From Candidatus Anaerobiospirillum merdipullorum (GTDB taxonomy: Bacteria > Pseudomonadota > Gammaproteobacteria > Enterobacterales > Succinivibrionaceae): DNA of 37,426 nt. Where the stretch lies: NCBI GenBank assembly GCA_018883895.1, contig JAHLFG010000036.1, positions 1-37,426 on the forward strand, in the 5' to 3' direction. The notes beneath the pieces were generated by a model. The model was not told where the DNA came from. It saw only the letters and a list, made by a program, of their open reading frames with translations, and made no database searches. The position numbers and the translations under genes were made by a program. Shown piece by piece: positions 7,765 to 37,169 of the stretch (position 1 is the stretch's first letter; each line of letters starts with the position of its first letter).

Positions 7765-7793
7765 GCCCTGGATTTGTCCCAGGGCTTATTATT
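7765..7793 (+). terminator. Terminator after the alpha-glucosidase gene
   Basis: GCCCTGG (7765-7771) and CCAGGGC (7779-7785) form a perfect 7-bp stem with a 7-nt loop, followed by TTATTATT. It also lies between the convergent alpha-glucosidase and transposase genes, so it may stop both. Confidence 0.65.
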
Positions 7794-9666
7794 AATTGTT
7801 GTTAAACTTTGCCACCATCTCATCTACCGTAGAGGCAATAAAGCCCTCGTCATCTGCTAATTCTTGGTCTGATTGCAGATCTTGCTGCTCTGCCTTGGTA
7901 AACACGGCAACATCTGGTATGGGAATGTCCAGCGCTTCTAGCAAAAGGCGTTTAATCCCGGTAATCTCCGTGTAATAGAGCCTGTCTTGCCACTCCTTAG
8001 CCTTAATCCCTTTAAGTTCTTCCATAATGGCTTTATCGCCATCAAATGGCAGTGCCATAGCTTTACAGTACGATGCATGGGTTTTAAACAGCAAAGCAAT
8101 TGATGTGGCGATGAAAAGTGTAAAGATTTTGCCTGCAGTTGTGCTGCAAGTTGAGGTGTGAAAACGCCCTCTGAGATCTTGTTTCCATACGGCAAAAGCC
8201 TCTGCCATGGAATTGTGCATTTGGTAGGCGCGGTAAGCTTCTCTAGGATCTGCAATGCAGTCAGAAAGCAAAATCTGATAACCTGCGGTAAATAAGTATT
8301 CAGCTATCTTTGCTTTGTTGGCTTTTATGCTGACGCAATTGCCTTCAGCGTCGCGCTCAATTATCAGCAACCGCTCGGCCAGCTTTTGCTCTTCATAAGA
8401 CAGCTTGCTCCCGCCCTTAAGCCGCAGGCGCAAGTCAGATAAAGCAATGGTTAAATTTTCGGTTTTGATATGTTTGATGTTGGCGTCAAAGAAGATGTGC
8501 ACCTGAATGTCTGCCCGCTCATGTGGGCGGCGTTGCTTACAATTAGTTTTAAAATTGACGGGGTAGCTCCATGACGTGGTAATACTGTAAACATGCTGCC
8601 GCAAAACGGGATCATAGCTGTCCATACCTTCTAGCTCTGCTTTATGTTTGGTAATGAAGTTACGGGCAAGAGAGCCTGAGGTCTTAAAGTTCATGACAAA
8701 TGAAGCTTTGCCCTGATAAAAGCGGTGAATATTAGCAATTGAAAAATAACCTCTATCACCTACCGCGATGGCGCGGCGATTAACTCCACTGCGCACGATA
8801 TCACGTAGCGTGTACAGCACGGAAGCAATGTCAGGGACATCCCCGTCAACGCAACGATAGTAAATCGGGACGCCCGTTTTCTGATTAACCAGCATAAGCA
8901 AATTAATTTGCCTTAAATGATCCTCATCTTTATTATGACCACCTGCCTCCTGGGTAAGATTTTTTGCATAGGTGCTAAATGAAGTAGCATCCAAGGCGTA
9001 GCAAGTATTGACCGAGCCAACATTGACTTGCTCAATTTTGCAAACTTCCTGATTGAGCTTTTTTAGGAATTTATCAATATCCTCTTTACTAATGCTTTTA
9101 AACAGCTGGGAGCACTGACTTGGGCGCAAAGGCGCCTGCCATGGCAGGCGATTATTTTTGGCAAAGGCCGCATAGCATTCCATGGACGTAGTGCTATTTA
9201 GGTACATGTAATAGGCCAGAGAAACTATTTTGCGATGGCGGTTATAGGGGCTGAAGACATCTTTGAGCGCCGTGGCAAGCGGGCTGTCCTTAATAATATG
9301 ATCCAACACCCAAGTAGGACCGGCAGTTAAAGTTTTGGCCTTAAAAGATTGGCGTAACGAAACCTGTTCGTCATGAGGCTCAAAGACAAGGAAATAGGAA
9401 CGTCTGCCGCCAGGCTTTGCCGGAGCTTTAGCTTTGCGGTATGTATCAAGCTTACCAAGTTCCGGATGCTCTTGTAAAAACTCTTCAGTCCAGACGACTT
9501 TGCCAGTAGTCTCCCCGCCCTCAATTTTGGCTACTGTTTTAGTCATACCTTTGACCGCAACGCACTTACCTTCTTGCCACTTATTTTTAAAGGTTACCAA
9601 ATAGCAGTGCTTACCGTTCTTTACGTGCTTCATAGGAGGAAGCGTTGGTAGAGACATCTTGGCCAT
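7792..9666 (-). mobile_element. IS4/IS1634-type DDE transposase
   Basis: 624-residue transposase of the IS4 superfamily (IS1634-like). Catalytic aspartates sit in LDATSF (Asp226) and GDRGYFS (Asp304); the C-terminal block with Tyr478-Arg479, Glu489 and Lys495 fits the Y-R-E-K signature. The open frame is full length and looks intact. The ATG at 9666 is preceded by GAGG nine bases upstream, which lies in the loop of a small hairpin (9670-9684). I could not find convincing terminal inverted repeats or a target duplication by eye, so the element ends are not defined; they would be expected near 7720-7790 and 9700-9860. The insertion separates a sugar hydrolase from a superoxide reductase gene. 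Confidence 0.88.
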
Positions 9667-13093: not shown

Positions 13094-13408
13094 CTAGGTC
13101 CACTCATCGCCCCACTCATCTTCATCCTCGTCAGGCTCGTCCTCATCAGGCTCCCATTCATCCTCATCAGGCTCCCACTCGTCCTCGTCAGGCTCCCACT
13201 CGTCCTCGTCAGGCTCCCATTCATCTTCGTCAGGCTCGTTTTCGTCGGGCTCCCACTCCCCACCACGCACCAAATGTAAGTAAGACTCCGGTATGGCATT
13301 ACTAATACAAGCTTGTGCTGAAAAATTGGATGTCGCCCCTGCCATCACCCCACCGCCAAGGGCAATCATCCCCACGAGTAAGCAAAATATCAAGCGCAAC
13401 ATCCTCAA
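13094..13408 (-). CDS. Exported acidic repeat protein (EWEPDED repeats)
   Basis: 104-residue protein I do not recognise. A signal peptide or lipid-less export signal is clear (residues 1-24: MRMLRLIFCLLVGMIALGGG then a small-residue cleavage region near 24). A short linker with one Cys (Cys34) follows, then residues 51-104 are almost entirely Glu, Asp, Trp and Pro: four perfect EWEPDED units (63-90) flanked by degenerate copies, ending in GDEWT. The tail carries about 36 acidic residues of 54. A good ribosome site (AGGAG) precedes the ATG. It is the second gene of a two-gene unit, 19 bp after another exported acidic protein. Binding of metal ions or other cations at the cell surface or in the periplasm is a guess from composition only. 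Confidence 0.7.
   Translation of the reverse strand: MRMLRLIFCLLVGMIALGGGVMAGATSNFSAQACISNAIPESYLHLVRGGEWEPDENEPDEDEWEPDEDEWEPDEDEWEPDEDEWEPDEDEPDEDEDEWGDEWT
13097..13258. repeat. 21-bp tandem repeat coding EWEPDED
   Basis: The acidic tail is encoded by a 21-bp minisatellite. Four full units occupy 13139-13222, with shorter or altered copies on both sides. Third-position differences between units (for example CAT/CAC and CTC/CTT) show that the copies are not all recent. Confidence 0.85.
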
Positions 13409-13427
13409 TTCTCCTCTTTAAAGCTCC

Positions 13428-13712
13428 TTAACTCCAATGGCGCCGGTAACGGCGGCGATCATCATCGTCGTCATCGTCGTCATCGTCGTCATCATCCCAA
13501 TCATCGTCATCCCAATCATCATCGTCGTCGTCCCAGTCGTCATCATCATCATCGTCCCAATCATCATCATCGATGAGCTTGCCGTCTATGGGCATGTGAT
13601 CATCCAATTGCCATAAGGCGGGAGTGAGATTTTGTGCCTGAGGGCTGGCAGCGGCCGCTGAAGCAAGTCCCAGCGCTACCAAGAGGGCGGCAAATAAAGG
13701 GGTTTTAGGCAT
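13428..13712 (-). CDS. Exported poly-aspartate/tryptophan protein
   Basis: 94-residue protein I do not recognise. Residues 1-22 are a typical signal peptide (MPKTPLFAALLVALGLASAA) with an Ala-rich cleavage site. The mature part has a 25-residue linker, then residues 48-85 consist only of Asp and Trp: D runs of 4, 7, 6, 4 and 13 separated by single Trp at 52, 60, 67 and 72. It closes with a basic tail RRRYRRHWS. The ATG at 13712 is chosen because AGGAGG lies 5 bp upstream; the frame stays open further upstream. It is the first gene of the operon with the EWEPDED protein. Shared design (export signal, acid runs broken by single Trp) suggests related function, perhaps cation binding; this is inference. 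Confidence 0.7.
   Translation of the reverse strand: MPKTPLFAALLVALGLASAAAASPQAQNLTPALWQLDDHMPIDGKLIDDDDWDDDDDDDWDDDDDDWDDDDWDDDDDDDDDDDDDRRRYRRHWS
13458..13571. repeat. GAY-rich low-complexity tract coding (D-n)W
   Basis: A 114-bp tract of nearly uninterrupted Asp codons (GAT and GAC mixed) broken by TGG codons. Such a tract is prone to replication slippage, so its length probably varies between strains. Confidence 0.85.
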
Positions 13713-13860
13713 GTCATCCTCCTGTAGAAGTGCTTGATTAACCCATTGCATGACTTGTAGTCTGACAATGTACAACTAGCATACTTAATTTGTAGCAGGA
13801 ATTTGAGCCTAACAATTGTAAAATTTTAACTAAGCTCGCAAAAAAGCGCGCCATCTAAAG

Positions 13861-13897
13861 GAAATAAAAATACCCGCCATAGAACTACAGCGGGTAT
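13861..13897 (-). terminator. Terminator after the GH31 remnant
   Basis: On the minus strand ATACCCGC (13897-13890) pairs with GCGGGTAT (13877-13870) and is followed by TTTTATTTC. It lies 17 bp past the GH31 fragment's stop and would have ended the original alpha-xylosidase transcript. Confidence 0.75.
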
Positions 13898-13914: not shown

Positions 13915-14313
13915 TTATGCCTCAGGCGTGACGCTAAAGCTTACCGTAGCGGGCGCGGCGTTAATGACAACGCCCACTTCCCCGGTGCTGACCGTGGCAT
14001 CGACACTCGTGGCCTGTTTAATATTGCGTAGCACCACGCACGGGGCAAGATCCTCAAGGCCTGCTTTGCTAAAGTCAATTACCTGCCCATGACGGGTGGC
14101 CGTTAAGCTGCCCACAACTTTACCTGTGGTATCGACTAATGTTGCCACCGCACTCTTACCATCGCCAAGCTCAAAGAGATGGAAGACACTGTCATGTACA
14201 TAGTCATAGTCAGGACGCTTAGCATTGTTGCCCCAGGCAAGCAAGGTATTTTCACGCACGTACAGCGGCAGCAACATAAAGCCATGCTCTTCATGGCGGT
14301 AGCTACCTCCGGC
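13915..14313 (-). pseudogene. GH31 alpha-xylosidase (YicI-like), C-terminal remnant
   Basis: Only the last 130 residues or so of a GH31 alpha-xylosidase are left. The readable frame holds HEEHGFMLLPLYVRENTLLA, then GNNAKRPDYDY and the C-terminal beta-sandwich, closely like E. coli YicI, whose full length is about 770 residues. The catalytic barrel is missing. Homology runs back past the first in-frame ATG (14277) to about 14301-14313, then an in-frame TAA appears and the sequence becomes the N-terminus-less GH120 gene on the other strand. So about 640 residues were lost by deletion. No functional protein is expected. Confidence 0.8.
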
Positions 14314-15974
14314 GCTTTAATCCTTTCACCACCTTATTATTTGGCGATTGGATTATTCACCCCTATCCTTTTGTGGTGCATTTGGGTGATGTGTACTTAA
14401 ATGGCAAGTCCCTCTATGAGGCCACTTCCTTAGAGGGCGTACGTCAGCCAGTCTTACGCACCACCGGTGTCGGCCCGGATTGAGAGGGTGTGACTGAGTA
14501 TTTAAGCGATCCGCAAGGCTCCCTTAAGACCTACTTTGCCACGGTGGAAGATGATTGCACCGTCATTTATGCCAATTTTGGTGGTGCTGATCCTAACGTC
14601 GATCAGGTGGAAATCAATGTCCGTCCAAACTGCGTTAAGCCTGTGCATGTTGGCATTAACTATATTACCTTAGAGGGCCTTGAGATCTGCTGTGCCGCCA
14701 CGCAGTGGAATCCGCCTACCGGAGTTCAGTCTGGCATGGTCGATACCTATTGGTCCAAGGGCTGGATTATCCAAAACTGCCATCTGCATGATGCCAAGAC
14801 CTCTGCCATTTCTTTGGGTAAGGAAGTCTCCACCGGTAATTGCGAGTGCACCCGCTATCGCCGTAAGCCTGGCTATCAGTATCAGATGGAAGCAGTATTT
14901 AAGGCCTTAAAGCGCGGCTGGTCCAAGGAGCTTATCGGCAGCCACAAGGTGCTACACAATGTGATCCACGATTGCGGCGAAAATGGCGTGGTCGGTCACT
15001 TAGGCTGCGTGTTCTCTGAAATTGCCTACAACTCCATCTACAATATTGCCAAGAAATATGAATTCTTTGGCCATGAGATTGCCGGCATTAAGTTACATAC
15101 CGCCATTGACGTGCGCATTCATCACAATGATATCTACAATTGCGCTTTGGGCATTTGGCTGGACTGGGAAGTGCAAGGTACCCGCGTCTCATCCAATGTC
15201 TTTGCGCAAAATACCCGTGACCTAATGATTGAAGTGACCCACGGCCCGTGCGTGGTGGACAACAATATCTTTGCCTCGGATTATAACTTTGATAATGTGG
15301 CGCAAGGCACCGCCTTGATTAATAACCTCTTTATGGGCACCCCACGTCGCATTGACACCCGTGACCGTGCCACCCCGTATCACACTCCGCACTCCACCGA
15401 TGTGGCCGGAGTGGCGGTGGTAGTCTCCGGCGATGATCGCGTCATGAACAATATCTTCGTCGGTGCCCCGATGGGCCCCAATGGCATCAGCGTCTCCGGT
15501 ACCGCCCATTACAACGGCCATGGCGATTCGATGGAAGAATATGTAGCTAAGGCCTTTGCCGGCATGCCTGAAGATCACACCGTCTTCAATGCGCTCAAAG
15601 ATCCGGTCTTTATTAAGTCCAATCTCTATGTCAATGATGCGCCACACTATGATTTAGAAAAGGACTTTACCGCCACCGCAGATAATCCGCACTTTGCCCT
15701 CGAGCGGGTCAACGGTCAGCCGGTGCTCAAATGCCACTTAAGTACAGAGATGTTAAAGCGCTGCTCCATCGTCAAGTCCTGGGATTTAGGCGCCCCGCGC
15801 ATTACCGAGTGCCCGTATGAGGACTTTGAAGGCCATGAAATCGTCTTCAATTGCGATTTAAACGGCACTTGCGCCACGTTAGATGAGACGCAGCGTTTAG
15901 CAGGCCCGCTTGCCAACCTTAAGGTAGGTGACAATGCCGTTGCCCTGCTTGCGCAGGTAGCCCGCCTGGCTTAA
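14314..15974 (+). pseudogene. GH120 beta-xylosidase, N-terminally truncated with internal TGA
   Basis: The frame encodes a right-handed parallel beta-helix protein closely resembling GH120 beta-xylosidases (for example Thermoanaerobacterium XylC, about 640 residues). Recognisable blocks are FGDW and LGDVYLNGKSLYE before the stop, then YANFGGADPN, SKGWIIQNCHLHDA, GHLGCVFSEIAYNSIYNI, GHEIAGIKLHTAIDVRIHHN and LGIWLDWE. Homology starts abruptly at about 14316 (FNP), so roughly the first 100 residues are missing, and TGA at 14481-14483 interrupts the frame. A 494-residue frame opens again at GTG 14490 but has no N-terminal beta-helix rungs. Read with the GH31 remnant, this is a broken xylo-oligosaccharide locus. 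Confidence 0.8.
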
Positions 15975-35372: not shown

Positions 35373-35834
35373 ATGATTATCTATACCAAAAACTTAGGCC
35401 CCGTCATCCCGACCCCGGATGCCCCTAGCTTGAGCTTAAGTGCCGAGCGCTGGGCAATTTGTCGGCAAAGAACTAAGCTTGAAGATGGCACGGAAGTGGG
35501 GATTAATGTAGAGCGTGGCCAAACCTTGCATGCCGGGGACGTGCTCCAAAGTGCTGACGGACAATTATGTGTGATCTGCGCCGCCCCCGAGGAGCTTATT
35601 GAAGCTACGGCCCCGGATGCCCTGACCCATGCCCGCGCCTGCTATCACTTAGGCAATCGCCATTTGCCGCTGCAAATTTTGCCACTTAAAGTGCGCTTTT
35701 TGCCCGATAGCGTGATTGAGCAAATGTGCACCACCCTAGGTTTAAGCCTGACGCGGCTGTGGGCCACCTTTAACCCCGAAAGCGGAGCCTACGCCCATCA
35801 TCATGAGCATGAGCACGAGCATCACCATGACTGA
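35373..35834 (+). CDS. ureE: Urease nickel chaperone UreE
   Basis: 153-residue nickel-binding metallochaperone. The core has YHLGNRHLPLQI (about residues 91-102), containing the family's conserved nickel-site histidine. It ends with a His-rich tail AHHHEHEHEHHHD that would bind several nickel ions. The His codons also carry the ureF start (overlap 8 bp). Confidence 0.94.
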   Translation: MIIYTKNLGPVIPTPDAPSLSLSAERWAICRQRTKLEDGTEVGINVERGQTLHAGDVLQSADGQLCVICAAPEELIEATAPDALTHARACYHLGNRHLPLQILPLKVRFLPDSVIEQMCTTLGLSLTRLWATFNPESGAYAHHHEHEHEHHHD

Positions 35835-36545: not shown

Positions 36546-37169
36546 ATGTCAAATGCTCCTTTGCGCGTCGGCATCGGCGGACCGGTGGGATCAGGGAAGA
36601 CCGCCTTGCTGTGCAACCTCTGTGTGCTTTTGCGCGATCAGTACAATATTGCTGCGGTGACCAATGATATTTACACCAAGGAAGATGCCGAATTTTTACT
36701 GCGCCATCAGGTCCTGCCGGCGGATCGCGTGCTTGGCGTCGAGACCGGCGGTTGCCCGCATACGGCCATTCGCGAAGATGCGTCGATGAATTTAAGCGCT
36801 ATTGCCACCTTAGAATAGCGCCATCCCAATTTAGACATCATCTTTGTCGAAAGCGACGGCGATAATCTCTCGGCCACCTTTAGCCCGGAGCTTGCCGATC
36901 TGACCTTATATATTATCGCTGTCTCCGGAGGCGATAAGATCCCGCGTAAAGGCGGCCCCGGGATCACCAAGTCCGATCTGCTGGTAATTAATAAAATCGA
37001 TCTGGCCCCCTATGTGCACGCCTCGTTGGAAGTAATGGCGCGCGACAGTAAGAAGATGCGCGGTGAGCGGCCGTTTTTATTTAGTAATATGCTCACTAAA
37101 GAGGGGCTTAATGAAATTGCGCACTTTATTATAAGCGCCGGGCTTCTCCCTGATAGACTTAACGCTTAA
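36546..37169 (+). pseudogene. ureG: Urease accessory GTPase UreG, interrupted by an amber codon
   Basis: The 207-residue reading frame of the nickel-delivery GTPase UreG is recognisable throughout. The P-loop [11 protein letters not shown] (residues 9-19) and the [16 protein letters not shown] block with the metal-binding Cys-Pro-His are in the first part. Codon 91 is TAG (36816-36818), where the family has GAG (LEERHP): a single G-to-T change would do. Beyond it the frame continues intact as [38 protein letters not shown] and VINKID to TAA at 37167. The usual ESGGDN reads ESDGDN. The 90-residue product would lack the NKxD guanine-binding motif. Other genes here end in TAG, so reassignment is unlikely. 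Confidence 0.9.

Follow-up and report, generated by a model that had tools for sequence, protein, structure and literature searches.

Which kind of protein is encoded by two small adjacent genes of Candidatus Anaerobiospirillum merdipullorum (Succinivibrionaceae), whose products combine an export signal and a short linker with a tail of acidic residues broken by single tryptophans, and what might such tails do outside the cytoplasm? Both genes lie on the reverse strand of a 37,426-nucleotide stretch that was analysed at its full length and is here called the window. It represents contig 82 of a 1.95-Mb MAG (92.6% complete). A mis-binned contig was rejected as an explanation, as the tetranucleotide correlation is 0.97 with other contigs of this genome versus 0.60-0.70 with the genus g2; synteny contradicts mis-binning too, since orthologues of the peptide ABC operon, the aldo-keto reductase and the exonuclease lie together in G004, a genome of the same genus.

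The two exported proteins

Gene 1 (13428..13712, stop included) encodes 94 amino acids and is supported by its translation, by an upstream ribosome site (AGGAGG, 13718-13723) and by similar pairs in relatives. Its product reads MPKTPLFAALLVALGLASAAAASPQAQNLTPALWQLDDHMPIDGKLI, followed by D4-W-D7-W-D6-W-D4-W-D13-RRRYRRHWS. Approximately residues 1-22 (MPKTPLFAALLVALGLASAAAA, 13647..13712) form a predicted signal peptide, read from the sequence by its short basic n-region, hydrophobic core and AxA end; a linker of about 25 residues follows. According to translation and AlphaFold2, the tail starting with DDDDW comprises residues 48-94 (13431..13571), the last nine of which are the basic C-terminus RRRYRRHWS (13431..13457). 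Gene 2 (13094..13402) encodes 102 amino acids in the order signal peptide, 25-residue linker, EWEPDED units and a final EWGDEWT. Its predicted signal peptide covers approximately residues 1-23 (13334..13402), and its acidic tail, residues 49-102 (13097..13258), is built of 21-bp repeat units, with a tandem repeat of period 21 and 4.9 copies at 13136-13237. Its start is likely the ATG at 13402, for which the ribosome site GAGGAG (13411-13416) is well placed, and the gap to gene 1 is then 25 bp; the 19 bp given in the initial annotation apply only to the alternative TTG start at 13408. Both tails described there agree exactly with the translation, and the analysis supports its view that the two genes form a unit for exported, acidic proteins with a signal peptide, a linker and a Trp-punctuated tail. 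On the strand of the pair, a terminator-like hairpin precedes gene 1 (13870..13897) and suggests that the pair has its own transcript; this is a weak signal, with four such hairpins found versus 2.3 expected. The antisense Ile/Val-rich frames were rejected, since signal peptides, ribosome sites and conservation fit the sense frame.

AlphaFold2 models computed from single sequences contain for both proteins a signal helix (residues 2-16 in gene 2), short helices of low confidence in or near the linkers, and tails without structure. For gene 1, the pLDDT is below 70 throughout and secondary structure ends by residue 28. Both proteins are predicted to be intrinsically disordered in their tails.

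The pair has no place in the curated catalogues. At E-values up to 1, neither protein matched a Pfam-A family, and NCBIfam returned for gene 1 just a sub-threshold match over its Asp run. The zinc uptake protein ZrgA (NF047873), an exported protein, has a low-complexity stretch resembling this run, but the alignment is confined to residues 48-85, the Asp run itself, and its 13.8 bits are far under the curated cut-off of 185 over the full protein, so that gene 1 is not a ZrgA member. The Gly-rich nonapeptide units of RTX calcium-binding repeats are absent from both tails. Gene 2 had no match in the PDB sequence search, and curated families, PHROGs and PDB sequences together gave no meaningful match for the pair; the plasmid search gave no match, and no description of such proteins was found in open-access papers. 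The pair is real, conserved and uncatalogued, and its products are probably exported disordered polyelectrolytes.

Distribution of the pair and tail conservation

The relatives comprised 57 genomes of the family, with G000 as the genome of the window, and 273 other genomes of the class served as comparison set. As the tails dominate whole-protein searches, these gave little beyond the tail of a lipoprotein in G002, and patterns were used instead. The DNA pattern for [DE]2-W-[DE]4 matched four times in G000 and 43 times in the family (reversed control, three), whereas that for W-[DE]-P-[DE]3, with 16 family sites and 8 in its reversed control, is less clean on its own. A stricter WD pattern occurs in 7/57 family genomes versus 0/273 others of the class (p about 3e-6).

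Besides the window, exported WD-tailed genes were found in G001, G002, G004, G015, G025, G060, G061 and G063, a related D/R/W protein in G026, and EWEPDED-tailed genes in G002, G005, G060, G061 and G063. Gene 1 of the window possesses the signal peptide, short linker and W-broken D-runs of the pair, and in seven genomes from three genera (G000, G001, G002, G025, G060, G061 and G063) the WD gene adjoins a same-strand gene for an exported protein with a charged tail. The pair that the initial annotation proposed to look for in relatives is therefore present in several of them with open frames. G004 and G015, which lack the adjoining gene, and G026 have a single such gene, and G005 has a divergent pair, in which the neighbour 18 bp upstream encodes an exported protein with a His/Arg/Trp/Asp tail. 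The gap within pairs varies from 25 to 644 bp, G060 and G063 have the two genes in reversed order, and the flanking genes differ from genus to genus. In G004, the WD gene lies directly behind the ABC operon whose window counterpart is located 5 kb upstream of the pair. As the majority of the family is without recognisable copies, the genes are dispensable. G002, which belongs to the same genus group as G000, has a contig identical to one recorded for Candidatus Avisuccinivibrio stercorigallinarum (L085 = L072); this species of the Succinivibrionaceae received its name from metagenomes of the chicken gut (PMC8035907).

Upstream of gene 1 in L070 and L074, a GTAAA-N6-GTAAA tandem box and a TATCTCACGGGCAG block are conserved between two genera. 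A CpxR-type control was rejected for the window, as the tandem GTAAA box occurs upstream of the G001 and G025 genes only and is at chance level in the window; a CpxR orthologue was not found at 1e-45, a strict threshold applied without a positive control.

The initial annotation had held that the regular Trp spacing argues against a simple accumulation of Asp codons. This argument is not supported, as tandem units themselves yield regular spacing: it is regular in G001, G004 and G025 (p = 0.0001 to 0.012) and follows 18-bp units in G001 and 15-bp units in G004, and gene 1 of the window, taken alone, has a mild regularity (p = 0.07). Selection on the tail is therefore argued from synonymous-only divergence instead. 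Between the window and G061, which belongs to another genus, the 21 codons at the end of gene 2 differ by five synonymous and no amino-acid changes (pS 0.58, pN 0.00), and the encoded end module EWEPDEDEPDEDEDEWGDEWT (13097..13159) is thus identical; relative to the window, G060 has one nonsynonymous difference and G063 four. The N-terminal parts of gene 2 are unalignable between the window and G061, which marks the tail as the conserved part that is kept by selection. On this comparison, which covers a short segment of gene 2 only, selection appears to preserve the tail while the head changes. The EWEPDED tail also occurs on an unrelated 383-residue lipoprotein of G002 (L073 7414-8565), for which none of the other 56 genomes of the family has a homologue, and the tail can accordingly be regarded as a portable module. 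For gene 1, the counterpart support comes from Asp codons that alternate between GAT and GAC, so that its tail did not arise by recent slippage of a single codon, from the retained Trp residues and from a weak homology of its head to that of G004 (E 2e-4). Further head matches were obtained between G001 and G025, for gene 1 (6e-5) and for gene 2 (4e-14), and the gene 2 head of the window has no convincing match. In all tails, Trp nearly always adjoins an acidic residue or Arg.

Charge of the tails and their possible function

In G001, G002 and G025, an acidic gene 1 product (net charge -35, -28 and -32) is accompanied by a near-neutral gene 2 product, an Arg-rich D/R polyampholyte (net +1, +6 and +2) with blocks such as DRWDKRP, which fits an interacting polyelectrolyte pair; in G001 and G002, RWERR blocks are present in gene 1 as well. 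In the window, gene 1 has a net charge of -30 and gene 2 is itself strongly acidic at -36, so that charge complementarity is limited to the nine-residue basic end of gene 1. The suggestion of the initial annotation that opposite charge might mediate mutual binding receives indirect support from the relatives, with less scope for it in the window. As gene 2 of the window is acidic too, we favour the view that the tails bind cationic partners generally, the partner protein being a likely ligand among them.

The proteins are probably real envelope polyelectrolytes, for which all binding, any localisation beyond the inner membrane and any network are inferred. Tentatively, the locus may be considered an operon-like unit for two Sec-exported disordered proteins of this kind that form a multivalent charged layer or condensate. 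The signal peptide would take each protein to the periplasm or beyond, where the linker would be a mere spacer and the tail the working part. Runs of Asp and Glu would attract cationic groups strongly and for the most part non-specifically, and the Trp residues spaced between them would serve as stickers through cation-pi contacts with Arg and aromatic contacts; with both properties combined, the tail is proposed to bind positively charged surfaces of proteins or peptides in preference to free ions. Its natural ligands would probably be blocks rich in Arg, Lys or His, both in the partner protein and within the same chain, for which RRRYRRHW in gene 1 and the Arg-rich second protein of relatives are candidates, and the resulting layer or condensate could buffer charge and cations in the envelope. 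The export signals as read from the sequence, the predicted disorder, the retention of the pair in relatives and the purifying selection on one tail support this model; the acidity of gene 2 in the window, three genomes with one gene, the variable spacing and order, and the lack of copies in most of the family count against it.

The fast change in tail length and units, and the many family members without the genes, would also be expected if tandem slippage simply expanded Asp codons in a dispensable exported protein whose tail has little function, and the Trp spacing that tracks tandem units in G001 and G004 points in the same direction. Such drift is weakened by the synonymous-only divergence of the gene 2 end module between genera, by the mixed Asp codons with Trp retained, by the adjacency of two such genes in seven genomes and by the good ribosome sites, and we think that it is quite improbable. 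The tail could also be released, if a protease cut at (L)LA in front of it to free a polyacidic peptide, for instance a signal or a bacteriocin-like product. Heads end in LLA in G025_1, G060_1, G061_1, G063_1, G060_2 and G063_2, in QLA in G001_1 and in LVA in G005_2, and the recurrent LLA before the charged tail is a possible processing site; however, the heads in the window end in KLI and RGG at that place and no dedicated protease or exporter was recognised beside the genes, which leaves peptide release highly improbable. It is also unlikely, though less so, that the proteins are decoys, in which an exported Trp-bearing polyanion absorbs cationic antimicrobial peptides of the host or of competitors before they reach the membrane. 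The design suits the binding of cationic amphipathic peptides, and at least one relative comes from chicken gut. The poly-gamma-glutamate capsule, an anionic surface polymer, is reported to shield bacteria from such peptides (PMC9560598). That polymer is non-ribosomal and has neither Trp nor a partner protein. Peptide-resistance genes were not recognised near the pair, and several of the relatives' second proteins are charge-balanced and not acidic.

A further alternative connects gene 2 with the urea-transport and urease operon of the window, which extends from 26451 onward and starts about 13 kb from the pair. In this alternative, the EWEPDED/EWGDEWT protein would be a metal or mineral buffer that binds Ni2+ outside the cytoplasm, or Ca2+/Mg2+ when urease raises the pH and carbonate. 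Urease alpha is found in 12/57 and the EWGDEWT end in 4/57 family genomes, and within the genera g1 and g2 both coincide in the same 4/15 genomes (G000, G060, G061 and G063; p = 0.0007; 0.0027 if the close pair G060/G063 is counted once); G063, taken as a prediction of the co-occurrence, fitted it. Against this stand eight urease genomes in other genera of the family that are without the motif, the WD gene, which has no association with urease (p = 0.19), and the position of the EWGDEWT gene and urease on different contigs in g2, so that shared descent or joint transfer could explain the co-occurrence. Moreover, metal binding does not involve Trp, and His residues are scarce in the two window proteins, which have no metal-site pattern. 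The co-occurrence is therefore a lead and not a result, and a metal buffer seems rather unlikely to us. It is very improbable that gene 2 encodes a dedicated urease-linked envelope factor, for nickel, ammonia-driven mineral or pH control, that forms a two-component condensate with its WD-tailed partner outside the cytoplasm.

Within the urease operon, the ureG frame (36546-36818) has one in-frame TAG at 36816-36818, after which UreG continues in the same frame. Either this accessory gene is broken or the assembly contains an error here, in the sole urease operon of the genus in the genomes compared; urease alpha occurs in no other genome of the window genus among the 57 family genomes. UreE (35373-35834) ends in HHHEHEHEHHHD and its gene overlaps ureF by 32 bp.

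Similar tails elsewhere and the surrounding genes

Long Asp/Glu runs are known from the eukaryotic DAXX polyD/E stretch and from calsequestrin, where they bind cationic partners or Ca2+, but these are not exported bacterial proteins, have no Trp punctuation and are not homologous to the pair. Closer likenesses are WDDDDW tails outside the family, which come from many phyla among the matches listed in named genomes. They share Asp runs that are interrupted by single Trp residues close to the C-terminus, and many follow a hydrophobic segment at the N-terminus: among the matches listed, 67 complete ORFs include 38 with such a segment, 49 with the pattern in the last 80 residues and 25 with both. 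The carriers, as read from their sequences, are PepSY-like proteins of Lachnospiraceae and Epulonipiscium, a NapC/NirT-like cytochrome of Nitrosomonas, Pro-rich anchored proteins of Corynebacterium, Rothia, Brevibacterium and Kocuria, and also Obg and other cytoplasmic proteins. As these carriers are unrelated and belong to many phyla, the tail type is convergent, and the earlier statement that no family with this design was known needs qualifying: no curated family matched, but the tail recurs.

Trp-broken Asp runs arise repeatedly on extracytoplasmic bacterial proteins, and genes of this kind escape notice behind profile libraries and low-complexity filters. In the gut Succinivibrionaceae, they make up a lineage-specific, uncatalogued set of exported proteins with predicted disorder, whose target of selection is a 21-residue acidic Trp module and not a fold. 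Pairs with oppositely balanced charge would offer a simple system in which to test protein condensates outside the cytoplasm.

Among the carriers of convergent tails, small proteins of actinobacteria (L087, L089, L093, L100, L107, L108, L121 and L146) have a membrane segment at the N-terminus, followed by a linker rich in Pro and an end like DDDWDDDDWDDDD, and are probably a separate uncatalogued set; the multihaem NapC/NirT-like cytochrome of Nitrosomonas (L101 3639-4268, also L080 and L120) carries a C-terminal DDWDDDDDWDDDDDDWDDDY. In the window, a DDE transposase gene (Pfam DDE_Tnp_1, 7792-9666) lies about 3.4 kb from the pair. At 13915-15974, a C-terminal alpha-xylosidase fragment on the reverse strand abuts a GH120-like beta-helix fragment on the forward strand, with an in-frame TGA at 14481-14483, and both are read as remnants of a rearranged sugar-degradation locus beside the pair.
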